A stretch of DNA of 64,000 nt from contig NC_071395.1 in the NCBI RefSeq assembly GCF_022682495.2, positions 57,055,242 through 57,119,241 on the forward strand. Direction: 5' to 3'. The DNA comes from Desmodus rotundus (taxonomy: Eukaryota; Chordata; Mammalia; Chiroptera; Phyllostomidae). Position numbers and translations under genes: made by a program. Positions 1 through 39,334 of this stretch are shown in pieces. The notes under the pieces are model-generated. The model was given only the letters and a program-made list of their open reading frames with translations, made no database searches and was not told the DNA's origin. Numbering within the stretch: position 1 is the stretch's first letter; the number at the start of each line of letters is the position of its first letter.

Positions 1-588
1 GCGGGGTGCTGCAGGTGAGGACTCTAGAAAGGGGACCCCACTGCCATCCTATAAGTGAACTTTAGAGACAGGCATTTGAAATCGAATTTGAATGATGATC
101 AAAAAAGATGAGGAGGTAGGTACAAGTCCTTGCAGGCCTATTCACTCCCAGAGCAGCCAGGAACTTGTCCCAGTTGTTCCACCGGGAGGAGGGCCTTGGT
201 GCCAGGAGAAACTTGTTCCTGGTCACCCAGAGCTCTCCACAGGGTCCAGGGTCAGGAACTCCATGCACGGTTGTGCAAGGTGTGCCCCAAACTAGGACAC
301 CGGAATAAGCAGCCAAGTGGGGTCTAAAGTCCAGTGCACCCTGCTCGTTCCATCGGCTGTCAGCCCAGGAGGTCGGCTTCTCATTCACACAGAGGGCTGT
401 GTGCGGTTCTGGGGTGGGTCTGACTCAGGGTGGACCTGGCTCAGGCTGGCATCTGGCCCGACCCACAGGATTTCTTTGCAACAGCTGTTTGTGAATTGGA
501 GGGATTTCTGCAAGACTAGACCCCAGTCACTTCAAGGGCGAGGACAGGACAGAGGGGCTGGACACTGAACTCGGTCCGCAGCCCTCAC
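1..588 (-). other. GRM6: GRM6 intron 1, proximal part
   Basis: The sequence immediately 3' (in gene sense) of the GRM6 first coding exon begins with a good donor, GTGAGG read on the minus strand from 588. No further coding similarity is visible down to position 1, so this is read as the first part of intron 1. I see no recognisable repeat in it. Confidence 0.7.
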
Positions 589-1101
589 CGCAAATAGGCG
601 CAGCACGTTGGCGACCATGATGGAAACGGAGCTGGCCGAGGCGCCCACGACAGCTACCACACGCTCGGGGGGCGCGGCGTGCAGCGGGGGGACGCCACCA
701 GGGCAGCGCAAGGCTGCCTCGTCGCCGTCCCCGCGGCCTCGGATCAGCGCCTGTACGAAGCTCAGTGCCTGCTCCAGTGCATACGTGTCCCGTGAGCAGG
801 TGTCCAGCAGCCGGGCGCCCAGGCGCACGCCGGGCAGCAGTGTGGGGTCAGCATTGACGCGGTCTAGCGCGTACAGCATGGCCTCCAGCCGGTGCACTCC
901 CTGTTCCTTCTTCAGCAGCCCGCACGGCCTGCCGGCCGCCCCCCGCGCATGCACTGGGAACAGGCCGCCCAGCGTGAGGCTGCCCGCCAGGCGCACGGAA
1001 CCCGCGGCGCCCACTGCGTCTGCCCACGCCAGCAGCAGCACCAGCACCGGCGCCAGTAGCGCCAGCAGTGCTGGCTCCAAGATGCTCCGCGGCCCGGCCA
1101 T
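589..1101 (-). CDS. GRM6: GRM6 first coding exon (metabotropic glutamate receptor 6)
   Basis: First coding exon of the class C GPCR mGluR6, the postsynaptic glutamate receptor of retinal ON-bipolar cells, which signals through Go to close TRPM1. The 171 visible codons start at the minus-strand ATG 1101-1099. A signal peptide of about 34 residues with a long Leu/Ala/Val core comes first, then the start of the extracellular Venus-flytrap domain. Readable blocks include [50 protein letters not shown] and [20 protein letters not shown], all characteristic of mGluR6. The exon ends in LRLFA with a phase-0 donor (GCG then GTGAGG). The open frame runs 66 codons further upstream, but that part does not look like any mGluR leader and the chosen ATG is directly followed by the signal peptide. 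The exon is very GC- and CpG-rich. The other exons lie to the left of the window. Family and exon identity are firm; the ortholog name rests on remembered human sequence and synteny. Confidence 0.95.
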
Positions 1102-8318: not shown

Positions 8319-10320
8319 GGAGAGCCAGGGTGGCGGCGTGGGTGGACACACTGCGCCTCCTCGCATAACCAGAACTGACAGAAAATTGAACGGCAAGGAA
8401 GTCCGACACCAAGGGAATAAAAAATAAACATTGATCCAGACAGGTAGGAGGGGCGGAGACGGGCAGCCGGAACGGAGAGGACTCGCGTTGCCCTGGTGGG
8501 ACCGAGACTGGCGGAGTGTGGGACCAACAGGGCAGGCAGTCTGACCACTAGCAGACCCTGCGGCCCCACATTCGCGCACAGATAAACTGAGAGGGCCAGA
8601 CTCAGAGTGGTGGAGAACGGGGCAGGCAGAGCAGAGGGTAGCACCACACGGCCCCACATTCCCGCACAGATGAACTGGACAACCGGCGGGGAGCAAAGCA
8701 GATCTCAAAACCCAGCGCTCCAGCGGTGGGGAAATAAAGCCCCAAACCTCTGATTGAAAGAGCCTGTGGGGGTTGGGGCAGCAGCAGGAGAGACTCCCAG
8801 CCTCACAGGAGAGAGCGTTGGAGAGACCCACAGGGGCCTAGAGCATGCACAGGCCCACCCACTTGGGAACGAGCACCAGAGGAGCCCAGTTCGATTGTAG
8901 GTAGCGGAGTGGGGGACTGAGGTCCCGTGGAGAGGGGAGCGGGCGCCATTGCTCCCTCTCGGCCCCTCCCCCACATACAGCGTCACAGCTCAGCGACCAG
9001 CGTTACCCCGCCCCGTGAACACCTAAGGCTCCGCCCCTTAAAGTAACAGACGCGCCAAGTCAAAAAAAAAAAAAAAATGGCCCAAATGAAAGAACACTTC
9101 AAAGCTCCAGAAAAAATACAACTTAGCAACAAAGAGATAGCCAACCTATCGATGCACAGTTCAAAACACTGGTTATCAAGATGCTCACAGAATTGGTTGA
9201 ATCTGTTCGAAAACCAGACGAAAAAATGAAGCCTATGCTAAGAGAAACAAAGGAAAATGTACAAGGAACCAACAGTGATGCGAAGGAAACTGGGACTCAA
9301 ATCAACGGTGTGGACCAGAAGGAAGAAAGCAACATCCAACCAGAAAAGAACGAAGAAACAAGAATTCAGAAAAATGAGGAGAGGCTTAGGAACCTCCAGG
9401 ACATTTTGAAACGTTCCAACATCCGAATTACAGGGGTGCCAGAAGGAGAAGAGGAAGAACAAAAAATGGAAAACTTATTTGAACAAATAATGAAGGAGAA
9501 TTTCCCCAGTCTGGCAAAGGAAATGCAATTCCAGGAAGTCCAGGAAGCTCAGAGTCCGAAACAAGTTCGACCTAAGGAAATACACACCAAGGCACATCAT
9601 CATTACACTACCCAAGGTGAAACAGAAGGAGAGAATCTTAGAAGCAGCAAGAGAAAAGGACACAGTTACCTACAAAGGAGTTCCCATAAGACTGTCAGCT
9701 GATTTCTCCAAAGAGACCTTACAGGCAAGAAGGGGCTGGCAAGAAGTATTCCAAGTCATGAAAGGCAAGGACCTACATCCAAGATTGCTCTATCCAGCAA
9801 AGCTATCATTTCGAATGGAAGGGAAGATAAAGTACTTCCCAGATAAGGTCAAGTTCAAGGAGTTCATCACCAATCCCTTATTATATGAAATGTTAAAGGG
9901 AGTTACCTAAGAAAAAGAAGATCAAAAATAGGAACAGTAAAAATGACAGCAAACTCACAGTTATTAACGACCACACCTAAAACAAAAACAAGAGCAAACT
10001 AGGCAAACAACTAGAACAGGAACAGAACCATAGAGATGGAGATCACATGGAGGGTTGTCAATAAGGGAGTGGGACGGGGAGAGGGGGGAAAGGTACAGAG
10101 AATAAGTAGCATAGATGATAGGTGGAAAATAGACAGGGGGAGGGTAAGAATAGTGTAGGAAATGTAGAAGCCAAAGAACTTATAAGTATGACCCATGGAC
10201 ATGAACTATAGGGGGGGAATGTGGGAGGGAGGAGGTGGGCAGGATGGAGTGGAGTGAGGGGGGGAAATGGGACAACTGTAATAGCATAATCAATAAATAT
10301 ATTTAAAAAATAAAAATAAG
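8319..10320 (+). mobile_element. HAL1-A: full-length half-L1 retroposon (ORF1 only)
   Basis: A 2.0 kb non-LTR element flanked by a perfect 12-bp TSD, taaaataaatgt, at 8307-8318 and 10321-10332. Order: a 5' end 'ggagagccagggtggcgg', a CpG-rich 5' UTR of about 750 bp, one L1-like ORF1 (9077-9910), a 410-bp G-rich 3' UTR, then 'caataaatat' and an A-rich tail. There is no ORF2. The same ORF1-to-3'UTR junction recurs in several other copies here, so the missing ORF2 is a family trait and not a deletion. HAL1 is a known mammalian family presumed to use L1 ORF2p in trans. This copy is young-looking and nearly identical to HAL1-D. Confidence 0.9.
9077..9910 (+). pseudogene. HAL1-A ORF1 (L1 ORF1p-like), frameshifted
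   Basis: Nominal 278-codon frame starting MAQMKEHFKAPE at 9077. A 1-nt deletion near 9150 (tatcgatg, where other copies have tatcagatg) throws the N-terminus out of frame. Translation re-enters at the Met at 9181. A second small deletion near 9555 separates the middle from the C-terminal part (9617-9910). Readable blocks: an acidic/lysine-rich helical N-terminus, the RRM start NIRITGVPEGEEEEQ, and the C-terminal domain GVPIRLSADFSKETLQARRG. These are L1 ORF1p landmarks (RNA-binding chaperone). Not functional as it stands. Confidence 0.85.
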
Positions 10321-17874: not shown

Positions 17875-19602
17875 ACGGAGGAAGATGGCGGCAACATAGG
17901 TGGGAGCGGAATCCACTTCCCCGCAACGCCAGGGAAATACCTAGCTGATCTGAGGAGCAGAGCGAACAGCCAACAGTATTCCAGCATATACGAAGATCAG
18001 AGACCAAAGATAGAGGACATTGAAAGATCTGACGGTAAGAAGAGTGCTCAAGGACAATAAGGTCCCCGGGAACCGGGACCGTGCGGTACAAGGGCGGCAG
18101 AGGCGCCAGCCCTGGCGCAGGGGCTGCTGCAGGAGTCTTGGGAGAGGGCCAGGCTGCGCTGTGAGCAGCCAGGTGCTTGATTGGACCAGGGGGGCTTGAA
18201 AAGGAGGAATTTCTCAAAAAGAAAAAGAAAATAGAGACACTCAGGGGCTAGTTAGAGAACTCTCGGTGGTGGCAGAGGCCCCTGGCGCCCCTCCCCCCTC
18301 CGCCCCTGGACTGCGAACGCGGAACGCGGGATAAACAGCACTGGCGCTCAACTGAGGTCCGGTTGCGCACGGTTGCGTGAGCGCAGATTAGCGAACGGGG
18401 CCCATACATGAAACCCCGGAGGGGCGCCCACACCTGAAACCTCCGAGATCATTTGGAGCAGAGGCTAGCTGCTCCACCCACAGACCCAAAACCTCGGAAC
18501 CGAGTACCGCGTGATTCGGTCCCAGGGCGGCCCCGCCCACCCGAGAGTCTCAAGCCCAGGGCGACTGGATCGGGCCCCCAAGCATGGAGCCTCTGGCTCG
18601 GCGGCGGGCTGCGCGCTCACCAAGCGTAGGGCCGGCTGGATGCGCGTTTCCCAAGCACAAAGAGGCTGGCGAGTGTCGTAACACCAAGGCGGCTGAACCA
18701 GCAGCTTGTGGCGCGCCAGCCTCCCTAGCCTGGGCGGCTCGATCGGTCGGTCGGCTGCGCGCTCAGAGCCCAAATAACGTCACAAACCCAAAGTGGCTGG
18801 ATTCCCCTGCTGCGCGTGCACGCATCCCGAGCCAAAGCGGCTAGAGCAGCCGCTCGCGGGTCCCAAGAACAAAGCTGCTGGATTGGCTGATCAACGGCCT
18901 GATTGCCTGACAGGGACCACACCTACAAAACAGTGAAGAGTGTGACCCGGGAAGGAAGAAAAGTGAAACCAATCCTTCCAACCACCCCCTCCCATTGCAC
19001 AGACAGGACAACAGCAGAAATAACCTGAATGGTTTAAAGCCAACAGAAGATTTTTTTTTTCCTTTTTTTTTTCCTTTTTTTTCCCTTTTTTTTTTCCTTT
19101 TCCTTTCCCCCTGAACTCCTTCTTCCTCTCTCTCTCTTTTTTTTCTTTCATTCCTTCTTCCTCCCATCCTTTACCATTTTTATGTCTTCTTCCTGCCTTC
19201 TTTTATCTATTTCTATGTTTTAATTTTTGTTAAAATTCCTTCTTATCTTGCCTCCGATCTTTCTTTAATCCTTCTTCCCTCCTTCCTTCCTTTCCTCCTT
19301 TCCTATTTCCTTTTTCCCTCCTTCCCATCTTTGGTTTTTTTTTTTTTTTTCCCTTTTCTTTCCCCCCCGCCTTTCTATTTTTCCCACAGGTGCGACAACA
19401 AAACCTGGAGTGCTGAAAAGACTAGAGTTAGACCGTGTTAAACACATAAACGTCAGCTCAAGACCAGTGAGCACAGGAGAGTAAGGAGACAGCACCACCG
19501 AATCCCATTGGCATTCTACCATAGAAGTTCATATCATAAACCCAGGGATTCAGAACAAAGCAATTTAAGAAGCAGAGGCCAACAAGAAGAGCCTCACAAA
19601 CA
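17875..19602 (+). promoter_or_regulatory. L1 5' UTR/internal promoter with YY1-like site
   Basis: Begins 'acggaggaagatggcggcaa'. The AAGATGGCGGC word at +8 matches the YY1 site that positions initiation in L1 promoters. CpG-rich from about 18050 to 18860, followed by a long pyrimidine tract (19050-19390), then the ORF1 leader. Promoter activity is inferred from structure. Confidence 0.75.
19050..19390. repeat. (TTTCC)n-like polypyrimidine tract in the L1 5' UTR
   Basis: About 340 bp, almost entirely T and C on the plus strand (runs such as 'ttttttttcctttttttttt' and 'cccttcctttcctccttt'). It lies between the CpG-rich promoter and ORF1 and belongs to the L1, not to a later insertion. Confidence 0.85.
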
Positions 19603-20535
19603 ATGGGAAGACAAAGAAACAATTCCCAAATGAAAGGAAAGGAGGAAGTCTCAGAAAGAATACTAACCGAAAAAGAGGCAAGTCAACTATCAGATACTGA
19701 GTTCAAAGCAATGGTCATCAGGAAGCTCACTGAGCTCTCTGAGCTCAAAGAGAACTACCAGAAACTACAAGGAAACTACAATGAACTCACTGCAAACTAT
19801 ATCAACATGAAAAAGGAAATAGAAAATATCAACAAGAGCCAAGAGGAAATGAAGAATACAATTTCTGAATTGAAGAACACAGTAGAAGGAATTAAAAGCA
19901 GACTTGATGAAGCAGAGGATCGGATCAGCGAGCTGGAGGATAAAGTAGAAAAAAACACCCAGAAGGAGCAAGAAAAGGAAAAGAGGCTCAGAAAGAATGA
20001 AGAGGCAATAAGGGAAATGCAGGACAACATGAAACGTAACAATATCCGTATAATAGGAATACCAGAAGGAGAAGAAGAAGAGCAAGGGATAGAAAACCTG
20101 TTTGAAAAAGTAATGATGGAAAATTTCCCTAATCAGAGGAGAGAAAAAGTCACCCAAATCCAGGAATCACAGAGAGTCCCAAACAAGAGGAACCCAAAGA
20201 GACCCACTGCAAGACACATCATAATTAAAATGGCAAATTTCCAAGACAAAGAGAGGATCTTCAAGGCAGCAAGGGAGAAAAAGGAAGTAACATACAAGGG
20301 AGCCCCAATAAGGTTAGCAACTGACTTCTCAATGGAAACGCTCCAAGCCAGAAGAGAATGGCAAAAAATATTCCAAGTAATGAGAACCAGAGGCCTCCAA
20401 CCAAGACTACTTTACCCAGCAAGGCTCTCAATCAAGATAGAAGACCAAATAAAGAGCTTCCCAGACAAAAGAAGTCTAAAAGAGTACACCTCCACCAAAC
20501 CAGCTCTGCAAGAGATGCTAAAGGGACTGCTTTAA
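19603..20535 (+). CDS. L1 ORF1p, intact (310 aa)
   Basis: RNA-binding nucleic-acid chaperone of LINE-1, which coats L1 RNA as a trimer in cytoplasmic RNPs. Start MGRQRNNSQMKG. Residues about 30-140 form a heptad-rich coiled coil (ELKENYQKLQ ... EDRISELEDKVEK). The RRM begins near 145 with NNIRIIGIPEGEEEEQ. The C-terminal domain carries ARHIIIKMANFQDKERI, GAPIRLATDFSMETLQARRE and PRLLYPARLSIK. The frame is uninterrupted to the TAA at 20533-20535. Length is slightly under human ORF1p (338 aa), in the normal mammalian range. It sits about 46 bp upstream of ORF2 in the standard bicistronic layout. An intact ORF1 next to a broken ORF2 means any product could act only with ORF2p from another copy. 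Confidence 0.93.
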   Translation: MGRQRNNSQMKGKEEVSERILTEKEASQLSDTEFKAMVIRKLTELSELKENYQKLQGNYNELTANYINMKKEIENINKSQEEMKNTISELKNTVEGIKSRLDEAEDRISELEDKVEKNTQKEQEKEKRLRKNEEAIREMQDNMKRNNIRIIGIPEGEEEEQGIENLFEKVMMENFPNQRREKVTQIQESQRVPNKRNPKRPTARHIIIKMANFQDKERIFKAAREKKEVTYKGAPIRLATDFSMETLQARREWQKIFQVMRTRGLQPRLLYPARLSIKIEDQIKSFPDKRSLKEYTSTKPALQEMLKGLL

Positions 20536-20581: not shown

Positions 20582-23500
20582 ATGGCAATGAATAACTACC
20601 TATCGATAATAACCTTAAATGTAAATGGATTAACTGCTCCAATCAAAAGACATAGAACAGCTGAATAGATAAGAAAACATTACCCACACATATGCTGCCT
20701 ACAAGAGACCCATCTCAGGACAAAAGACTTACACGGACTGAAAGTGAAGGGCTGGAAACAAATTTTCCAAGCAAACGGACAGGAAAAAAAAGCAGGGGTA
20801 GCAATACTCATATCAGACAAAATAGACTTCCAAAGAAGGGCCATAAACAGAGACCCAGAAGGTCACTTCATAATACTCAAAGGAAGAATCCACCAAGAAG
20901 ACATAAACATTATAAATATATATGCACCCAACATAGGAGCACCCAAATACATAAAGAAAATCTTGGAGGATTTCAAAAAAGATATTGACAGCAACACAAT
21001 TATAGTAGGGGATTTTAACACCCCACTATCAAAAATGGACAGGTCTTCCAAACAAAAGATTAACAAAGATATTGTGTCACTTAACAATACCCTAGAGGAA
21101 ATGGACTTAACTGATATATACAGAGCTTTTCATCCCAAAGAAGCAAAATACACATTCTTTTCAAGTGTCCATGGAACTTTTTCAAAGATAGACCACATGA
21201 TAGGACACAAAGCAAGCCTCAACAAATTCAAGAAAATTGAAATCATATCAAGCATCTTCTCTGACCACAAGGGTCTGAAACTAGAAACCAACCCCAAGGG
21301 TAAAAACCCAAAACACTCAAAATCATGGAGACTGAATAGCATGCTATTAAACAATGAATGGGTCAAGAACGAGATTAGGGAAGAAATCAAAAACTTCCTG
21401 GAAACAAATGAAAACGAACTCACAACAACCCAAAACCTATGGGACACAGCAAAGGCAGTCCTGAGAGGGAAGTTCATAGCAATACAGGCCTACCTTAAGA
21501 AGTTAGAAACAGTTCACACAAACAACCTAACCCTACGCCTACAAGAACTGGAGGAACAACAACAAAGACAGCCCAGAGCAAGCAGAAGGAAGGAAATAAC
21601 CAAGATCAGAGCAGAACTAAATGACATAGAGACTAAAAGCACAATTGTAAGGATCAATGAATCCAGAAGCTGGTTCTTTGAAAAGATAAACAAAATCGAC
21701 AAGCCTTTAAGTAGGCTTATCAAGAAGAAAAGAGAGAGGATCCAAATAAACAGAATTAGAAATGAAAGTGGAGAGATTACAACTGATACCACAGAAATAC
21801 AAAGGATCGTAAGAAAGTACTATGAAGACCTATATGCTAAGAAATTTGAAAACCTAGATGAAATGGACACATTTCTAGAAAAAATATAATTTTCCAAAAC
21901 TGACTGAAGAAGTAGCAGAAAACCTGAACAGACCAATATCAGCAAAGGAAATTGAAGCAGTCATCAAGAAACTCCCATCACACAAAAGCCCTGGACCAGA
22001 TGGTTTCACAGGAGATTTCTACAAAGCATTTAAGGAAGAACTAACCCCTATCCTTCACAGACTATTCGAAAAAATCCAAACTGATGGAAGACTCCCAAAC
22101 TCTTTTTATGAAGCCAACATCATCCTAATCCCAAAACCAGATAAAGACACAACGAAGAAAGAAAACTTCAGGCCAATATCGCTGATGAACATAGACGCTA
22201 AAATTCTCAACAAAATATTAGCAAACCGCATCCAGCAATATATTAAAAAGATCATCCACCATGACCAAGTGGGATTCATCCCAGGGATGCAAGGATGGTA
22301 CAATATTCGCAAATCAATAAACATAATACATCACATCAACAACAGCAAAGACAAAAATCACATGATCATATCAATAGATTCAGAAAAAGCATTCGATAAG
22401 ATACAGCATCCATTTCTGATAAAAACACTCAGCAAAGTGGGAATAAAGGGAGCAGTCCTCAACATAATTAAGGCCATATATGAGAGACCTACAGCCAACA
22501 TCACATTCAATGGACAAAAACTTAGAGCTTTCCCACTAAGATCAGGAACAAGACAAGGATGCCCTCTCTCACCGCTCCTATTCAACATAGTATTGGAAGT
22601 CCTAGCCACAGCAATCAGACAAGAAAAAGCAATAAAAGGCATCCAAATTGGAAAGGAGGAAATGAAACTGTCACTGTTTGCAGACGACATGATAGTGTAC
22701 ATGGAAAACCCTATAGACTCCACTCAAAAACTACTCGACCTAATAAATGAATTTGGCAAAATAGCTGGATACAGAGTCAATACCCAGAAATCAAAGGCAT
22801 TCCTGTACACTGCAACGAAACTGCAGAAACACAAATCAGGAAAAAAATCCCATTCGATATAGCAACAAGAAAAATAAAGTACCTAGGAATCAACCTAACC
22901 AAGGAGGTAAAAGACCTGTACTCAGAAAACTACACAACACTGAAGAAAGAAATTAAGGAAGATACAAACAAATGGAAGCATATACCATGTTCATGGATTG
23001 GAAGAATTAACATCATCAAAATGGCCATACTACCCAAAGCAATTTATAGATTCAATGCAATCCCTATTAGAGTACCCATGACATATTTCACAGATATAGA
23101 ACAAACATTGCAGAAATTCATATGGAACCATAAACGACCTCGAATAGCAGCAGCAATTTTGAGAAAGAAGGACAAAGCAGGAGGTATCACAATACCTGAT
23201 ATCAAACTGTATTACAAGGCCACGGTAATCAAAACAGCCTGGTACTGGCATAAAAACAGGCACATAGACCAATGGAACAGAATAGAGAGCCCAGAAATAA
23301 ACTCAAATCTATACGATCAATTAATATTTGACAAAGGAGGCAGGAGCATAAAATGGAGCAAAAACAGTCTCTTCAACAGATGGTGTTGGGAGATCTGGAC
23401 AGCTACGTGCAAAAAAATGAAACTCGATCACCAACTTACGCCATACACGAAAATAAACTCAAGATGGATAAAAGACTTAAATATAAGCCGTAACACCATA

Positions 23501-24403
23501 AAAGTCCTTGAGGAAAACATTGGCAGGAAAATCTCAGACATTCCACGCAGCAACATCCTCACAGACACATCCCCTAAAGCAAGGGACATAAAGGAAAGAA
23601 TAAACAAATGGGACCTCATCAAAATAAAAAGCTTCTGCATGGCTAAAGAAAACAGCACCAAATTATAAAGAGAACCAACAGTATGGGAAAACATATTTGC
23701 CAATGATACCTCAGACAAGGGCCTGATCTCCAAAATATATAAAGAACTCACACGACTCCACTCCAGGAAGACAAAGAACCCAATTAAAAAATGGGCAAAG
23801 GACTTGAACAGACACTTCTCCAAGGAAGACATACAGAAGGCCCAGAGACATATGAAAAGATGCTCAGCATCACTAGCCATCAGAGGGATGCAAATTAAAA
23901 CCACAATGAGGTATCATCTCACACCAGTCAGAATGGCCAACATAAACAAATCCACAAACAAATGTTGGAGAGGATGTGGAGAAAAGGGAACCCTCGTGCA
24001 CTGTTGGTGGGAATGCAGACTGGTGAGGCCACTGTGGAAAACAATATGGAATTTCCTCAGAAAACTAAAAATGGAACTGCCCTTTGACCCAGCAATTCCG
24101 CTGCTGGGATTATACCCTAAGAACACTGAAACACCAATCCAAAAGAACCTGTGCACCCCAATGTTCATAGCAGCACAATTTACAATAGCCAAGTACTGGA
24201 AGCAACCGAAGTGCCCATCAGCAAACGAGTGGATCCAAAAACTATGGTATATTTACACAATGGAATTCTACACAGCAGAGAGAAAGAAGGAGCTTATACC
24301 CTTTGCAACAGCATGGATGAAACTGGAGAGCATTATGCTAAGTGAAATAAGCCAGGAAGTGAGGGACAAATACCATATGATCTCACGTTTAACTGGAACA
24401 TAA
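20582..24403 (+). pseudogene. L1 ORF2p (endonuclease/reverse transcriptase), disabled
   Basis: Starts MAMNNYLSIITLNVNGL (20582). The APE-type endonuclease, with CCLQETHL and later SDHKGL, spans about 20.6-21.3 kb. The RT domain covers roughly 21.9-22.8 kb, with [35 protein letters not shown] and the catalytic FADDM (about 22677-22691). The C-terminal domain follows to the TAA at 24401-24403. Four lesions are visible: a TAG at codon 29 (20666-20668, where a Trp codon is expected), a frameshift near 21885, a frameshift near 22815 and an in-frame TAA near 23666. The C-terminal 200 codons (23804-24403) are open. The element is complete in extent but cannot make ORF2p. Confidence 0.92.
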
Positions 24404-26617: not shown

Positions 26618-28522
26618 TTTAAAATATATTTATTGATTATGCTATTACAGTTGTCCCATTTCCCCCCCACACACTCCACTCCATCCTGCCCACCCCCTCC
26701 CTCCCACATTCCCCCCCTATAGTTCATGTCCATGGGTCATACTTATAAGTTCTTTGGCTTCTACATTTCCTACACTATTCTTACCCTCCCCCTGTCTATT
26801 TTCCACCTACCATCTATGCTACTTATTCTCTGTACCTTTCCCCCCTCTCCCCCTCCCACTCCCTTATTGACAACCCTCCATGTGATCTCCATCTCTATGG
26901 TTCTGTTCCTGTTCTAGTCGTTTGCCTAGTTTGCTCTTGTTTTTGTTTTAGGTGTGGTCGTTAATAACTGTGAGTTTGCTGTCATTTTTACTGTTCCTAT
27001 TTTTGATCTTCTTTTTCTTAGGTAACTCCCTTTAACATTTCATATAATAAGGGATTGGTGATGAACTCCTTGAACTTGACCTTATCTGGGAAGTACTTTA
27101 TCTTCCCTTCCATTCAAAATGATAGCTTTGCTGGATAGAGCAATCTTGGATGTAGGTCCTTGCCTTTCATGCCTTGGAATACTTCTTGCCAGCCCCTTCT
27201 TGCCTGTAAGGTCTCCTTTGAGAAATCAGCTGACAGTCTTATGGGAACTCCTTTGTAGGTAACTGTGTCCTTTTCTCTTGCTGCTTCTAAGATTCTCTCC
27301 TTCTGTTTCACCTTGGGTAGTGTAATGATGATGTGCCTTGGTGTGTTCCTGCTTGGGTCCAGCTTCTTTGGGACTCTCTGAGCTTCCTGGACTTCCTGGA
27401 AGTGCATTTCCTTTGCCAGACTGGGGAAATTCTCCTTCATTATTTGTTCAAATAAGTTTTCCATTTTTTGTTCTTCCTCTTCTCCTTCTGGCACCCCTGT
27501 AATTCGGATGTTGGAACGTTTCAAAATGTCCTGGAGGTTCCTAAGCCTCTCCTCATTTTTCTGAATTCTTGTTTCTTCGTTCTTTTCTGGTTGGATGTTG
27601 CTTTCTTCCTTCTGGTCCACACCGTTGATTTGAGTCCCAGTTTCCTTCGCATCACTGTTGGTTCCTTGTACATTTTCCTTTGTTTCTCTTAGCATAGGCT
27701 TCATTTTTTCGTCTGGTTTTCGAACAGATTCAACCAATTCTGTGAGCATCTTGATAACCAGTGTTTTGAACTGTGCATCGATAGGTTGGCTATCTCTTTG
27801 TTGCTTAGTTGTATTTTTTCTGGAGCTTTGAAGTGTTCTTTCATTTGGGCCATTTTTTTTTTTTTTTGACTTGGCGAGTCTGTTACTTTAAGGGGCGGAG
27901 CCTTAGGTGTTCACGGGGCGGGGTAACGCTGGTCGCTGAGCTGTGACGCTGTATGTGGGGGAGGGGCCGAGAGGGAGCAATGGCGCCCGCTCCCCTCTCC
28001 ACGGGACCTCAGTCCCCCACTCCGCTACCTACAATCAAACTGGGCTCCTCTGGTGCTCGTTCCCAAGTGGGTGGGCCTGTGCATGCCCTAGGCCCCTGTG
28101 GGTCTCTCCAACGCCCTCTCCTGTGAGGCTGGGAGTCTCTCCTGCTGCTGCCCCAACCCCCACAGGCTCTTTCAATCAGAGGTTTGAGGCTTTATTTCCC
28201 CACCGCTGGAGCGCTGGGTTTTGAGATCTGCTTTGCTCCCCGCCGGTTGTCCGGTTTATCTGTGCACGAATGTGGGGTCGCAGGGGCCGCCAGTGGTCAG
28301 ACCACCCGCCCCGTTCGTCCTACACTCCACCAGTCTCCGTCCTGCCATGGCAACTCGAGTCCTTTCCGCCCCGGCTGCCCGTCTCTACCCCTCCTACCGG
28401 TCTGGATGAATGTTTATTTTTTATTTCCTTGGTGTCGGACTTCCTTGACGTTCGATTTTCTGTCAGTTCTGGTTGTGCTAGGAGGCGCAGTGTGTCTACC
28501 TATGCCACCATCTTGGTTCTCC
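26618..28522 (-). mobile_element. HAL1-D: full-length half-L1 retroposon
   Basis: 1905 bp with a perfect 16-bp TSD (tggactacaataattt at 26602-26617 and 28523-28538), inserted in ORF2 of L1-H. Read on the minus strand, the 5' end is 'ggagaaccaagatggtggca' at 28522, followed by a CpG-rich 5' UTR, ORF1 (27853 to 27018) and a 3' UTR ending in 'caataaatatattttaaaa'. Nearly identical to HAL1-A and sharing its diagnostic indels. Among the youngest insertions here. Confidence 0.92.
27018..27853 (-). pseudogene. HAL1-D ORF1, frameshifted
   Basis: Same architecture as HAL1-A ORF1. The ATG at 27853 is followed by the same 1-nt deletion near 27776. From the Met at 27749 a 211-codon frame runs through the RRM and most of the C-terminal domain to a TGA at about 27114. 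HAL1-A has CGA at that position, so this looks like CpG decay. The middle region (QRVPKKLDP) that is damaged in HAL1-A is intact here. Confidence 0.85.
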
Positions 28523-28548: not shown

Positions 28549-30660
28549 TAAAAATATTGTATTTTATTGATTATGCTATTACAGTTGTTCTGATTTTCCC
28601 CCCTTTCCTCCTTCCACCCAGCACCCCCTCACTCCCTCAGGCAATCCCCCTCCATTTTTCATGTCCTTGGGTCATTTGGATAAGTTCTTTGGCTACTCCA
28701 TTTCCTATACTGTACTTTACATCCCCATGGCTATTCTGTAACTACCTATTTGTACTTCTTAATCCCCTCACCTCTTCACACATTCTCCTACATCCCCCTC
28801 TCCCCTCTGGCAACCTTCTGGTAAGCAACTTCTTTTCTCTTGCTTTTAAGAGTCTCTTTTTATCCTTAACCTTTGGCCTTTTAATGATGATGTGCCTTGG
28901 AGTGGGACTCTTTTCATCCACCATAATTAGGACTCTGCACTTCCTGGACTTGCTTGTCTGTTTCCTTCACCAAATTAGAGAAGTTGTCTTTTACTATTTT
29001 TTCAGATAGATTTCCAATTTCTTTCTCTTCTCCTTCTGGCACCCCTATGAGGTGAATGTTGGAGCTCTTGAAGTTGTCCTGGAGGTTATACTATTCTCAT
29101 TTTTTTGGATTCTTTTCTCTTCTTATTGTTCTGATTGGTTATTTTCTGCTTCCTTATGTTCCAAATCATTGATTTGATTCTCAGGTTCATCCATTCTACT
29201 GTTGTTTCCTTGTAAGTTGTTCTTTATTTCAATTAGTGTATCCTTTGTTTCTGACTGGGTCTTTTTTATGCTGCTGAGGTCCTCACTGAGTTCCTTGAGC
29301 ATCCTTATAACCAGTGTTTTGAACTCTGCATCTGATAGATTGCTTATCTCCATTTTGTTTAGCTCTTTTTCTGGAGTTTTGATCTGTTCTTTCATTTGGG
29401 CCATGTTTCTTTGTCTCTTCATTTTGGTAGCCTGCCTGTGTTTGTTTCTATGTATTATGTAGAGCTGCTTTGACTCCATGTCTTGGTAGCGTGTCCTAAT
29501 GTAGTAGTGTCCTATAGGGTCCAGTGGCACAGCCTCCCCTAGTACCGAAGCTAGGTACTCGAGGTGCGCCCTTTGTGTGGGCTGAGTACACACTCCTCTT
29601 GTAGTTGAACCTTGGTTGCTGTTGGCAGATCAATGGGAGGGATTTACTCAGGCCAGTCAGGTGCAAGGATTGGCTGTGACCACTCACCACCAACCTGTCC
29701 TCTGTGAAAGATCAGCTGTGCAGGGGTAGGGTGGTGGTGCTCCATCGTGCTCTGTAGCTGTCCACTGGGTGCGTTGGCCCTGGGGTTTCCTTGATGGTGC
29801 AGACCAATGTCAGCCCCCACCTGTGTTTTGCCTGGGGCACCCTGCCTGAGCTATAAAACGATCTGAGATGGCTGCTACTTTTGCTGGGCTTGGAGATTCC
29901 CAGGTGAAGCCAAGCTGTGACTCTAATCTGGCTGCTGCTTGGGCTCACTGAAGCCAGCTGTTGCTTGTTTGATAGGATTTAGGAGCCAAGACCAGCCATT
30001 CCTATGGAAAAGCAGCTTAGGTGAGCCCATAAATTGGGTGGGGTAGAGCCTCTGTAGATCTCCAAGGTGGTTTACAGAGTGTTAGACAGGTTGATGGGTT
30101 CTCAGATATGGCACCAGCCTACCAGCTCTGTAGGGAAAGGGCTCTGCAAAGGGACCATGGCCTCTGCTCACCTTGATGCCAGACACTTCAGTCTCTCCCT
30201 GTATACCACTAGTGCCCTTCAAGCTGCCACCCTGGTGCTAGAGGTCAGAGAGAACGAGCCTGCATGGGTGAGTTCATGTGTGGGTTTCCCAAGGGGAACT
30301 GCTTAGGGCTTGAGCAGCCTCCTCCACTGACTCAATCCCCGCTGGTTTTCACAGCCAGAAGTTGTGGGGACTTATTCTCCTGGCTCTGGAATCCTGGGCT
30401 GGGGCTCCTCACTCCCAAAATATGCCTCCTGAATTTTTATCCATGTGGGTGTGGGGCCAGCCCATTCTGTATCCACGCCCCTCCTATCTGTCTGGATGGA
30501 TGTGGTTTCTTCAACAACTGTAGTTGTCAGATTTCCATTCAACTAGGTTTCTGATGTTCCTGAGTGATGGTTGTTCTATATTTCAGTTGTAATTTTGATG
30601 TGGTTGTGCGAAGAGGCACTCCATGTCTGCCTATGTCACCGTCTTGACCAGAAGCCAGTT
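28549..30660 (-). mobile_element. HAL1-F: older half-L1 copy
   Basis: The minus-strand 5' end lies at about 30660 ('ctggcttctggtcaagacgg') and the 3' A-rich tail at about 28549. ORF1 is recognisable at 29423-28820 (MAQMKEQIKTPEKELNKMEI at the start; PRHIIIKRPKVKDKKRLL near the end), with stops and a deletion of the last part of ORF1. Inserted in L1-H ORF2 next to HAL1-D. No clean TSD can be read. Confidence 0.7.
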
Positions 30661-31259
30661 TTTTTTTTTTGAAGGTATTACTCTATATCAGAAGAATATA
30701 CATTCTTTTAAAGCACACATGTTAGGACACAAAACAATCTCAATAAATTTAAGAGGACTGAAATCATATCAAGCATCTTCCATGATCACAATAGTATGAA
30801 ACAAGAAATCAAACACAAGAAGAAAGGTAAAAAAACACATAAACATATGGAGCTCAAATAATATGCTACTAAGCAATGAATAGATTAACAGTGAGATAAA
30901 GGAGGAATCAAAAAATACATTGAGACAAATGACAATGAAAACACACAATGACTCAAAATCTATGGGACATAGTAAAAGTTGTTCTGAGGGAAGTTTATAG
31001 TAATACAGGCCTATTTGGAGAAACAAGAAAAATCTCAAATAAATAATCTAATCTTAAATGAAAGGAACTAAAAAAGGAACAAACAAATCCCAAAGTGAGA
31101 AGATGAAAGAAAATAATAAAGATTATTATTTAGAACGCATATTTTTCTGATATAGAGTAATGTGTTCTAAAAAAAGAAACCAAAACAACTGGCTTCCAGT
31201 GATGGTGGCATAGGCAGACATGGTGTGCCTCTTCTCACAACCACATCAAAATTATAACT
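30582..31259. repeat. junction-spanning inverted duplication
   Basis: 30582-30697 (5' end of HAL1-F plus flanking L1-H ORF2) reappears as its reverse complement at 31139-31259. The order and the poly-A/T spacer are the same and divergence is modest. Shared words include 'ctgatatagagtaa' and 'cataggcagacatgg'. The spacer of about 440 bp is ordinary L1-H. Confidence 0.75.
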
Positions 31260-34000
31260 AAAATTAATTAATAAAGATTTTAGAAAAAGTACAAAAGCTC
31301 AATGAAACCAAGATTGGTTCTTTGAAAAGATAAGCAAAACTTACAAGCTTTTAACTAGATTCATCAAGAAAAAATGAGGTCCTAAATAACTAAAGTCAGA
31401 AATGAAAGAGAAGTGGCAACCAACACCAAAGAAATACAAAGGATTGTAAGAAAATACTACAAGCAATTATATGCTAACAAATTGGACAACCTAAAATAAA
31501 ATGCATAAATTCCTAAAAACATAAAATCTTTCAAGACTAAATAAAGAAGAAACAGAAAATTTGGACAGAGTATACTTACTACTGAAATTAAATCAGTAAT
31601 CAAAAATTTCCCCACAAGCAAAGAAAGCACTGGTTGGCTTCATGGTGAATTTCACCAAACATTCAAAGAAGAATTAACACCTATGCTTCCCAAACTCCTC
31701 CAAAAATTGAAGAGAGAGGAAGCCTCACAAATTTATTTCATAAGGCCAGTATTACCCTCATTCCAAAGCTAGACAAAGACATCACAAAAAGAAAATGATA
31801 GAACAATATCCCAGATGAACATAGATGCAAAAATTTTCAACAAGGTAATTAGCACACTGATTTCATCAATACATTAAAAAGATTATAGACCATGATCAAG
31901 TGGGATTTATTCCTGGGATGCAAGTTTGGCTCAATATCTGCAAGTCAATTAATATGGTGCATCGCATAAACAAAATAAAGGATAAATTTCAGATAAAAAT
32001 AATTTAATAAATGCTGAAAAGGAATATGACAAAATTAAGCATCCATTTATGATAAAAGCTCTCAGCAAAGTGGGAATAAAAAGCACATACCTCCACATAA
32101 TAAGGCCATATATGACAAACTTATTGCCCATATCACACTCAGTGGTGAAAAGCTGAAACTTTTTCTTAAGATCAGGAACAAGATAGGAATGTTCACTGTC
32201 ACCACTCTTATTCAACATAGTATTGGAATTCCCAGCCACAGGAATCAGACAAGAAAAAGAAAGAAAAGGAATCCAAATTGAAAAAGAAAAACTGCTATTA
32301 TTTGCGGATGATATGATACTATCTAGAGAGAACCCAAAGAGTCCCCCAAAATACTATAAGAACTGCTAAATGAGTTCAATAATGTAGCAGGACACAAAAT
32401 TAAAGTACAGAAATTGGTTGCATTTTTATACACCAATAATGAACTCTCAGAAAGAGAAATTAAGAAAACAATCTCATGTATAATTTCATCATAAAAATAC
32501 CTAAAAATAAATTTAACCAAGGAGGTGAAAGACCTGTACTTGGAAAATTGTAAGACATTAAAGAAAGAGATTGAAGAAGACACTAATAAATGGAAGCATA
32601 GACCATACTCATGAATAGAAAAGATTAACATCATTCAAATGTCCATACTTCCCAAAGCAATCTATAGATTCAATGCAATCCCTATCAAAATACCAACAGT
32701 ATTTTTCACTGAACTAGAACAAATAATTCTAAAATTTATATGGAACCACAAAAGACCCCCAAAATGCCACAGAAATCTTGAGAAAGTAGAACGAAGTTCG
32801 ATGTGTCATGCTCCCTGAAACAAACTACACTATAAGGCCATAGTAATAAAAACAGCATGGTACTTGCATAAAGATAGACCAATGGAACAGAACAGAGATC
32901 CCAGAAACAAGACCACACCTACATAATCAATTAATTGATGATAAAGGAGGCAAGACTGTACAATAGGCTAAAGACAGTCAATATAGTAAATGCTGTTGGG
33001 AAAACTGGACAGACACAAGCAAAAAAAAAAAAAAAAAGCAACTAGACCATTTTCTTACACCACATACAAAAATAAACACAAAAATGGGTTAAAGACTTAA
33101 ATGTAAAACCTGAACCCATAAAGCTCCTAGAAAAAAAAAAAACAAGCAGTAAACTCTCTGACATTGTTCTTAGTAGTATTTTTTTGACACATCTCCTTGG
33201 GGGAGGGAAACAAAATAAACAATAAGCAAATTGGATTACATCAAACTAAAAATGTTTTGCACAGCAAAGGAAACCATCAACAAAATGAAAAAGACAGCCC
33301 TGGCCAGGTTGCTCAGTTGGTTGGAGCATCATTGTGTACACCAAAACTTGCAAGCTTGATTCCCAGTTAGGGCACATACCCAGGTTGTATGTTTGATTCC
33401 TGGTTGGGTGCACATAGGAGGCAACAGCTCAACATTTCTACCTCACATGGATGTTTCTGTCCCTTACTCTCTCTCCCCCTTCCTCTCTCTCTAAAATCAG
33501 TAAACATCCTGAGGTGAGGATTAAAAAAATTATATAAAAAAACAAAATGAAAAGACAACCCACTGAGAGAAGAGAGTCACCAATGATACATCAGATTAGG
33601 GATAAATATTCAAAATATATAAGAACTCATACAACTGTACCCCCCAAAAGACAATCTAATTAAAAAATGGGCAGAGGACTTAAATAGACACTTCTCCAAA
33701 GAGGACATACAGATGGCCAAGGTCATATGAAAAAATGCTCAATGTCACTAATCATCAGAGATATGAAAATTAAAACCACAGTGAGATAGCATCTCACGCC
33801 TGCCAGAACTTTCTATCATCAATAAATTAACAAGTGCTGGCAAGGATTGGAGAAAAGGGAACCCTAGTGGGAATGCAGATTGGTGCAGCCACTGGAAAGC
33901 TGTATGGAGTTCAAGAGGGATCAAAAAATTATAAATAGAACTACCTCATTTCTGGTATTTATTTGAAGAAATCCAAAACACTAATTCAAAAAGATATATC
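30672..34000 (+). pseudogene. L1-H ORF2 remainder (endonuclease end, RT, C-terminus)
   Basis: Follows the L1 order: 'agaatatacattctttt' (endonuclease), 'accaagattggttctttgaa', RT block 'catgatcaagtgggatttat' (about 31890), 'tcaggaacaagataggaatg' (about 32172), a FADD-like 'tttgcggatgatatgatact' (about 32301), then C-terminal blocks to about 34000. Dense with stops and indels. It is the in-window comparator showing what an old L1 RT domain looks like. Confidence 0.85.
33297..33541 (+). mobile_element. Ves SINE
   Basis: The tRNA-like head 'gccctggccaggttgctcag', a B-box-like 'gcttgattcccagttagg', a CT-rich middle and an A-rich end. The TSD acaaaatgaaa(a)agaca lies at 33280-33296 and 33542-33557. 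Inserted in L1-H ORF2. Confidence 0.88.
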
Positions 34001-34014
34001 TTAGATCATGAAGA

Positions 34015-34160
34015 CTTACATTTAGATTTTATTGTAAGGTTTTAACAGTTTTAGCTTTCACATCTAGGCCTTTGATCCATGTTGAGTTAATTCTTATATG
34101 TAACGTGTGGTAGAGGTCCAAATTCACATTTTTGTACATGGATACCAAGTTGGATATACA
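34015..34160 (-). repeat. L1 ORF2 fragment, antisense
   Basis: The words 'aggcctttgatccatgttga' and 'gtggtagaggtccaaattca' are the reverse complement of a conserved L1 ORF2 C-terminal segment. Short, truncated and abutting the end of L1-H. Confidence 0.7.
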
Positions 34161-34959
34161 GAAGACCTTTATGGTAGGTGATATTCGGGCAGAGACCTGA
34201 ATGAAAACTGTGATAAAGCAATATTGGTATCTACCAGGCACAAGAGTAAGCAATTGGAGTCTCTGGGTACAGAGGAGCTGCACAAATTAATCAAGGAGTG
34301 AATACAGGTGTTTCTCCTGGGCTGCTGTATATGTATCCCTGAAAACTTTTGTGTTGAGTAAAAATGCCAATGAAAAATAGCTGATGTTGTGGGAAGAATA
34401 GTATTTGAACAAGCCACTAACAGAAACCACATCTTATTAAAAAAATAATAGCATAGTTAAAAAGATGTGGTAACTTTTCAGGTACATCAATACACATGAG
34501 AGAGAGACAGAGACACAGAGAGAGAACCAAAATGAGCTCTTCCCTTGTGAAGGAAGGTGGAAGTGTCTTGGAGAAAGAGGCCTGGTGAAGGGTTGCTGGC
34601 ACTGAGTGTTGAAGACCACCCGGAAGAGCTCCTGAGCAATAGCAGGGAGCCACTCTGAGCTGAGAGAGAGGCTGTGAGAGTTTGAAGGGGTGTCAGGAAC
34701 AATCCTATTTTCTTTAGCTGTAATGCTATCAGCTGTGAGGGGTTATCTGCATTTAGACCTTTTTATCTGGAGTGTAAAATATTAATGTGCTGGGGAAAAT
34801 CTTATAAAAACCAGGAAACCTCTCACATCAAATGGAATTAATCCACCATACAGAAGTATGTGTTGCAGCAGAACTCGTTTTTTTACAAAACAATTTCAGA
34901 ATAGAAAAAAGATTACATTTAGTGTTTTATGAGACTAAATACACAGGGCAAGAAATAAA
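34161..34959. other. unassigned intergenic sequence
   Basis: No coding sequence or confidently named repeat. Contains a GA-rich microsatellite-like patch near 34498-34525. Confidence 0.4.
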
Positions 34960-35285
34960 ATTTATAACCTAACAAAGAAGCATAGATCCAAAAATTATAA
35001 TAAAACATTTGCAATCAGAAATACAAAAAAACATTATAATCAAGTCTGGTTTGTTCCAGAAATGCACTTTAGTAGATTAATGACTTAGAAAATTTATTCA
35101 TGTAATTCACTGCATTAACAGATTAAAGGAAAAAACATGATTACCTAAATGGATGCAGAAAAAAACGTTTGATAACATCCAATATCCATTCATCATTTAA
35201 AAAATATAGCAATCTGGAGATCTTTAATCTGATAAAGTAAACTACCAAAGCCTACCAAAAATATTATACTCAGTGATGAGTGATT
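34960..35285 (+). repeat. ancient L1 ORF2 RT-domain fragment (overlaps the GRM6 enhancer)
   Basis: Collinear with the RT domains of the two other plus-strand L1s here (about 22185-22510 and 31810-32150). The order is 'gcatagatccaaaaattata', 'ttgttccagaaatgcac', then codons reading VIHCINRLKEK at 35103-35135 (the young L1 has [11 protein letters not shown] at the same point). Next come 'ggatgcagaaaaaaacgttt', 'atccaatatccattcatcat', and finally 'aaaatattatactcagtgat'. Frameshifts and stops abound, but the order and spacing are those of L1. This is far older than the other L1s yet has kept long similar stretches. Confidence 0.85.
35037..35222 (-). promoter_or_regulatory. GRM6: putative GRM6 ON-bipolar-cell enhancer (ortholog of the mouse Grm6 ~200-bp element)
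   Basis: Read on the minus strand (GRM6 sense), this stretch starts 'gatctccagattgctatatt' and ends near 'ggaacaaaccagactt'. It matches, from memory, the ~200-bp enhancer upstream of mouse Grm6 that is widely used to direct ON-bipolar expression. Shared words include atccatttaggtaatcatgt (one difference), ctttaatctgttaatg and agtgaattaca, in the same order and spacing. Orientation and synteny agree. Visible K50-homeodomain (OTX2/CRX-type) words: AGATTA at 35074-35079 and 35120-35125, GATTA at 35139-35143. It lies about 34 kb from the GRM6 ATG here, versus roughly 10 kb in mouse. Activity in this species is inference. Confidence 0.8.
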
Positions 35286-35689
35286 TCAAGTGTTTATTTC
35301 CTTTAAAATCAGAACATGACAGTCATTGCAAACAGCATCCGTGTCTGTCACTGGCACTGGAAGCACACAGCACCTGATGGGTCACATGGTCCAGGAAGTG
35401 GAGCAGCCTGCACACAGTCTGGGTTGTTGCAGAGCCTCCGCCTGCTCTGGGCCTCACTCAGCACCAGCCACTTTTCTGGGCACTTGGTAAATGGGCCAGA
35501 GTAACACACTGAAATGAGGAACAAAATCCAGAGAGGACCACAGGACCTTGTGCATCCTTTTATTTGGGGGGTGCGTATGGAAAGGCTGGATGCAACAATT
35601 TATTCTCACCATAGAAGAGATGGAGATCTATCTATCTATCTACATCTGTATGCGGATATCCCATACCACCGAACTTCTAGAAAGTAGAA
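35286..35689. other. unassigned sequence with a (CTAT)n microsatellite
   Basis: A short tetranucleotide run lies at 35624-35642. The part 35310-35560 looks like decayed retroviral or LTR debris adjoining the ERVL relic, but no clear boundary can be given. Confidence 0.35.
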
Positions 35690-38496: not shown

Positions 38497-39334
38497 TTAG
38501 GTAACTCCCTTTAACATTTCATATAATAAGGGCTTGGTGATGATGAACTCCTTGAACTTGACCTTATCTGAGAAACACTTTATCTGCCCTTCCATTCTAA
38601 ATGATAGCTTTGCTGGATACAGTAATCTTGGATGTAGGTCCTTGCCTTTCATGCCTTGGAATACTTCTTGCCAGCCCCTTCTTGCCTGTAAGGTCTCTTT
38701 GGAGAAATCAGCTGACAGTCTTATGGGAACTCCTTTGTAGGTAACTGTGTCCTTTTCTCTTGCTGCTTCTCTGACTCTCTCCTTCTGCTTAATCTTGGGT
38801 AACGTAATTATGATGTGCCTTGGTGTGTTCCTCCTTGGGTCCAGCTTCTTTGGGACTCTCTGAGCTTCCTGGACTTCCTCGAAGTCTATTTCCTTTGCCA
38901 GAGTAGGGAAGTTCTCCTTCATTATTTGTTCAAATAAGTTTTCAATTTTTTGTTCTTCCTCTTCTCCTTCTGGCACCCCTATAATTCGGATGTTGGAACA
39001 TTTCGAGATGTCCTGGAAGTTCCTAAGCCTCTCCTCATTTTTCTGAATTCTTGTTTCTTCATTCTTTTCTGGTTGGATGTTTCTTTCTTCCTTCTGGTCC
39101 ACACCGTTGACTTGAGTCCGTTTCCTTCGCGTCACTATTGGTTCCCTGTACATTTTCCTTTGTTTCTCTTAACATAGCCTTCATTTTTTCATCTAGTTTG
39201 TGACCAAATTCAACCAATTCTGTGAGCATATTGATTACCAGTGTTTTGAACTGTGCATCTGATAGGTTGGCTATCTCTTCGTTGCTTAGTTGTATTATTT
39301 CTGGAGCTTTGATCTGTTCTTTCATTTGGGCCAT
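38497..39334 (-). pseudogene. HAL1-E ORF1, single visible frameshift
   Basis: The ATG at 39334 opens MAQMKEQIKAPEIIQLSNEE and keeps the tatcagatg word that is shortened in HAL1-A/D. One small deletion near 39118 shifts the frame. The rest (39153 to 38497) is open through the RRM (NIRIIGVPEGEEEEQ), QRVPKKLDP and the C-terminal domain to MLKGVT at the stop. It is the most complete HAL1 ORF1 in the window, about 279 codons. Confidence 0.88.

Follow-up and report, generated by a model that had tools for sequence, protein, structure and literature searches.

A LINE-1 reverse-transcriptase fragment as the probable source of the distal ON-bipolar enhancer of GRM6 in Desmodus rotundus

In a 64,000-nucleotide stretch of the Desmodus rotundus genome (hereafter, the window), positions 35043-35222 very probably represent the ortholog of the distal ON-bipolar enhancer of GRM6, made from an antisense LINE-1 (L1) ORF2 reverse-transcriptase (RT) fragment that would have been inserted before the split between bat and mouse. 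This reading is based on alignments of the bat element with the mouse enhancer, on an L1 profile and pairwise comparisons with the L1s of the same window, and on a tree of L1 copies. The features concerned are listed in Table 1.

Table 1. Positions of GRM6, the probable enhancer ortholog and L1 sequences in the window
Feature	Position	Strand	Basis or remark
GRM6 first coding exon	586..1101	-	start codon at 1101; tblastn match ends at 586; translation
L1 ORF1-like open frames	9127-9702, 27114-27887, 29123-29629, 38497-39168		judged by eye
Younger L1	19540-24403	+	long open ORF1 19540-20535; ORF2 in several frames; between GRM6 and enhancer
Older L1, in pieces	30676-33945	+	ends ~1 kb short of the enhancer fragment
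Short L1 piece, antisense	34048-34139		0.8 kb left of the enhancer fragment; neighbour-piece profile search
Decayed L1 ORF2 (RT) fragment holding the probable enhancer, antisense to GRM6	34980..35322	+	L1 profile, 74.0 bits
Probable enhancer ortholog, aligned to bases 1-195 of the 200-bp ON-bipolar element of mouse Grm6	35043..35222	-	blastn
TAATCT, K50-type word	35074..35079	-	mouse has the word; 0/81 L1 copies (motif scan)
TAATCT, K50-type word on INRLKEK codons	35120..35125	-	mouse has the word (motif scan)
TAATCA word	35138..35143	-	mouse has the word; commonest L1 form GATCA, one change away
L1	61502-64000	-	~90% identical to the 20669-24400 L1; reaches the right end of the window

Correspondence to the mouse enhancer

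In mouse, a 200-bp enhancer located at -8126 to -7927 from the cDNA start drives ON-bipolar expression, as stated in a passage of PMC4197864 citing Kim et al., and in PMC12935429 a reporter assay gave a peak at this element, in open chromatin. One 200-base copy from the 4xGRM6 cassette printed in PMC5372788 served as the query. A blastn comparison with the window revealed 75.8% identity over 198 columns (E 6.8e-35; 35222-35043, minus strand), a match that falls inside the L1-similar segment 34980-35322 and agrees with the preliminary description, which had placed the words of the mouse enhancer, in the same order, on the minus strand of 35037-35222. The next-best window match for the mouse enhancer is the RT region of the young L1 (22440-22293), in the same register and with an E value of 1.6e-9. 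In a search of the whole 2.12-Gb genome, for which the best 40 of 78 candidates were scored, the window site ranked first (142 bits, E 7.6e-32), followed by a runner-up of 73 bits (E 3.4e-11), and the other 39 of these 40 places were confined to bases 13-145 of the mouse enhancer.

Regarding the gene itself, a human GRM6 protein sequence matches the window with 92.9% identity over 141 residues at 586-1008, which is the sole tblastn match of GRM6 in the window at E 0.001 or better. Translation revealed an open exon 1 frame, and tblastn found no further GRM6 exons in the 64-kb window, outside which the remaining gene lies. As the start codon is situated at 1101 on the minus strand, the stretch at 35 kb is located ~34 kb upstream of GRM6, and the bat enhancer has the orientation to GRM6 that is seen in mouse, both gene and enhancer being on the minus strand of the window with the enhancer upstream. 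The spacing between 1101 and 35043 is about four times that of mouse (~34 kb and 8 kb, respectively), and intervening L1 insertions may explain part of the larger bat distance. The plus-strand L1s described earlier near 22.3 and 31.9 kb are both present (blastn, L1 profile), and the enhancer fragment is an RT-region piece separate from the older of the two. Among the ORF1-like frames, those starting at 9127 (+) and 27114 (-) are partly near-identical and lie in opposite orientation.

The bat element carries three TAATC words, which we take to be K50 homeodomain (OTX2/CRX)-type motifs. They were found on the minus strand where the preliminary description had placed them (near 35074, 35120 and 35139), and mouse has all three in the same order. 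Passages of PMC6802965 on Gnb3, the gene on which the motifs were tested, report that photoreceptors and bipolar cells require K50 homeodomain motifs and that Q50 motifs are repressive in the latter; a motif scan found no TAATTA-type Q50 word in the bat or the mouse element. The sole CANNTG E-box of the mouse enhancer (bases 7-12, CAGATG) reads CAGATT in bat, at 35211-35216.

The bat and mouse elements share orthologous sequence, equal orientation and three TAATC words in identical order, whereas the bat element differs in a 17-base gap beside the 35074 word, in the E-box that is not kept and in its distance from the gene. By analogy with mouse, the element would act as an enhancer in bat as well. 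A sequence that is L1-derived and orthologous, yet no longer an active enhancer in bat, is unlikely; the missing E-box, the gap and the larger spacing could be taken in this sense, but the three TAATC words are kept, exon 1 of GRM6 is open and the bat lineage has accumulated little change since the split (branch 0.046, vs 0.151 in mouse).

LINE-1 origin and age of the insertion

The preliminary description had assigned 34960-35285 to the RT region of L1 ORF2, which blastn and an L1 profile confirmed, the similarity continuing to ~35322, past the end given there. In blastn, the younger L1 of the window matches 34936-35217 in the + orientation (E 2.5e-13). The L1 profile comprised 30 copies, of which 29 were fetched with the 31.9-kb L1 and one was the young L1, none being chosen by the enhancer. 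This profile gave 74.0 bits on the bat stretch at 34980-35322, where the best of 2000 dinucleotide shuffles gave 6.4 bits, and 33.4 bits on bases 70-182 of the 200-base mouse enhancer, where the best of 2000 shuffles gave 3.5 bits; it finds the two independently and in one register. Pairwise comparison of the bat stretch with the two internal L1s yielded z values of 8.0 and 7.3, with 0/1000 shuffles as good in each case, and its reverse complement yielded 0.1 and -0.2. The mouse enhancer matched the young L1 with a z value of 8.7 (0/1000 shuffles as good) and the 31.9-kb L1 weakly (z 2.8; 13/1000 shuffles as good). The four wrong-strand comparisons of bat and mouse with the L1s ranged from -0.2 to 1.2. 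At the nucleotide level, the L1 match is therefore strand-specific, and it is collinear across ~340 bases. Other genome places resembling the enhancer also belong to L1: with the bat query, 27 of 39 further places were fetched, all 27 with an L1 profile match and 26 with an ORF2 protein match, and with the mouse query 9 of 39 were fetched, of which all nine match the profile and eight the ORF2 protein.

At the site itself, pieces of the young L1's ORF2 gave no tblastn match in 34.9-35.3 kb at E 0.01 or better, probably because the fragment is too broken by stops and frame changes; this result bears on the readable frame and not on the L1 origin. The frame from 34961 includes VIHCINRLKEKT, a stop, LPKWMQKKTFDNIQYPFII and another stop, keeping the order of ORF2. 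In this frame VIHCINRLKEK is indeed legible, as had been noticed earlier, with stops on both sides, and the DAEK word lies in a different frame. Profiles of the four neighbouring 500-base pieces of L1 (21-28 copies each, mostly of younger L1, so that older neighbours could have been missed) revealed no match adjoining the fragment, which leaves ~340 recognisable bases. The bat piece resembles the RT region of an old mammalian L1 ORF2 in its collinearity over ~340 bases and in the words that can still be read in frame, and differs from it in being a lone decayed fragment.

Orthology and dating were addressed with two species, bat and mouse. The comparison covered 173 columns in which bat, mouse and L1 are all represented, after removal of those where either panel of L1 had fewer than 15 letters. 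In 45 of these columns, bat and mouse both depart from a 36-copy L1 consensus, and in 39 of the 45 they agree on the base, where about one third would be expected by estimate if the differences were independent; with a stricter L1 consensus, the base is shared in 28/32 double differences. Some of the shared bases are present in up to 16/36 L1 copies and others in 0-3 of ~30, and those common among L1 copies may mark a subfamily. In a FastTree analysis of 87 rows of L1 copies, from which rows of less than 120 bases and L120 (not L1-like beside the pattern) were left out, bat and mouse form a pair with a support of 0.933, on a stem of 0.146. The tree and the shared differences together imply that much of the change from L1 predates the split, or else reflects an old L1 subfamily outside the sample.

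Bat and mouse are identical in 150/173 aligned columns. Neutral divergence between bat and mouse would be far larger, and the element appears to have changed slowly after the split, the short bat branch showing constraint more plainly than does the decay from L1. The proposal that the L1 was inserted antisense before the split is upheld by these comparisons, and the two elements are most simply regarded as a single insertion older than the split. Two separate insertions of the same L1 subfamily upstream of GRM6, giving elements that are not orthologous, are very improbable. Such insertions would account for the different distances from GRM6 and for the many shared differences that a minority of L1 copies have as well; against them stand the 39 common bases, several of them rare among L1 copies, a match that spans bases 1-195 of the 200-base mouse enhancer, the support for the bat-mouse clade, and a single genome place far above the others among the best 40 of 78 candidates scored.

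It is equally hard to maintain that the GRM6 enhancer predates the L1, which would have fallen apart around or onto an existing regulatory site. The comparison was confined to the 200 bp, outside which regulatory sites may exist, and the mouse profile match is limited to part of the element, but the bat L1 match covers the entire orthologous stretch and overruns both of its ends, which places the functional sequence inside the L1 and not beside it. Finally, chance similarity through shared AT-richness is almost certainly wrong and was rejected, since an AT-rich region, the weak match of mouse to the 31.9-kb L1 and the missing ORF2 protein match are outweighed by the shuffles, the wrong-strand controls, the profile scores and the collinear match.

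Homeodomain words and decay of the fragment

The preliminary description had derived the OTX2/CRX-like words from L1 codons. The words are located on L1 codons, as claimed, but GATTA is rare or absent at these sites in L1 copies. Counting only L1 rows with letters at the given word, GATTA occurs at 35073-35080 in 0/81 rows (31 picked by enhancer similarity and 50 not), at 35118-35126 in 4/36 enhancer-picked copies and 0/50 others, and at 35137-35145 in 5/36 and 4/50, respectively. The commonest aligned L1 word at 35120-35125 is ACAAAATGA, three changes from the TAATCT site; in the order 35074, 35120 and 35138, the distances from the commonest L1 words are four bases (three from another form), three bases and one base. 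A closer starting point is offered by the column consensus of an apparently older set at 35120-35125, ACAGACTAA, one change away, although this set consists of 20 copies hand-chosen from 58 matches to a neighbouring pattern so as to favour the ACTAGG form. The column consensus of these 20 copies includes AACAGACTAAA and, further along, ATGATCA, each one base from the 35120 and 35138 words, and the change at the 35120 word is synonymous (CTA to TTA, leucine). Individually, intact AGACTAAA is found in 1/20 of these copies, ATGATCA in 6/20, AGATTA in 2/20 and ATGATTA also in 2/20.

L062, L050 and L007, three old copies chosen for their similarity, carry AACAGATTAA, and an L1 subfamily outside the sample could therefore have had the word. 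Further older loci were sought through flanks. The flank of L005 led to six short loci; all of them have profile matches with E values of 1 or lower, and only the match of L100 extends across the core. The flank of L064 led to 29 further loci, 22 of them matching the profile, whose 84-86% identity to the query indicates that they are probably young. In the sampled copies, which mostly lack the intact words, L1 thus supplied near-miss words, and most of these copies do not support the idea that the K50 words are inherited L1 words.

Regarding the claim that the enhancer core escaped the decay of L1, identity to the L1 consensus is 78% (49/63) at 34980-35042, outside the enhancer, and within the enhancer 62% (31/50) at 35043-35096, 80% (74/93) at 35097-35190 and 61% (19/31) at 35191-35222; on the right, 35223-35322 has 61% (59/96). 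The enhancer core does not clearly differ from the left flank. As for path lengths in the tree, bat has the shortest one in the nested clades with three, four, five and six tips and the second shortest in that with seven (supports 0.36-0.79), but it ranks 16th of 29 tips in the next larger clade (0.36 vs a median of 0.35; support 0.80). Because the rank shifts with clade size, any conclusion hinges on which parent node is taken, and that node is uncertain. The observations on this claim are mixed.

A possible course of events and its meaning

The observations would fit the following course. An old L1 inserted antisense upstream of GRM6 before the bat-mouse split may have provided an AT-rich backbone with words that, judging from the sampled copies, were one to four bases short of homeodomain sites. 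The words would have been completed before the split, either by substitutions that followed the insertion or through variants belonging to an old L1 subfamily outside the sample, giving a distal enhancer in which three conserved TAATC words are presumably bound by OTX2/CRX-type K50 factors. TAATC words without a TAATTA-type Q50 word would fit the K50/Q50 grammar reported in PMC6802965, and the element would then have changed slowly in the bat lineage.

Exaptation of this kind has parallels. The apolipoprotein(a) LINE enhancer is another exapted transposon-derived enhancer. It shares with the LF-SINE enhancer of ISL1 and the GRM6 element the conversion of a mobile-element fragment into a distal enhancer kept by selection, whereas the GRM6 element differs from both in being antisense L1 coding DNA and in serving one retinal cell class. 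Transposon-derived enhancers are thus already known, LF-SINE being an example in the passages concerned of a review (PMC7786948). No link between the Grm6 enhancer and a transposable element was found in the open-licence literature, and the passages on the mouse enhancer cited above do not mention an L1 origin; public RepeatMasker tracks may well label the fragment as L1 already.

More tentatively, one antisense L1 insertion on the placental (or therian) stem could have created the GRM6 enhancer, so that RT codons would partly control the master ON-bipolar receptor gene of mammals, and this ORF2 segment, only a few bases removed from three homeodomain sites, might constitute a latent retinal enhancer present in many copies across mammalian genomes; this wider proposal is possible and rather doubtful. 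The Grm6 enhancer is a short switch in standard use for directing optogenetic vectors to ON-bipolar cells (PMC5372788, PMC4197864). It is both a widely used targeting tool for gene therapy and a model of retinal cell-type specificity, and an L1 origin would show where this switch came from. If true, such an origin would give the enhancer a datable birth and predict vertebrates without it, and it would provide a concrete ancestor for testing each gained site in the retina. The four-copy vector cassette would then carry four L1-related pieces.
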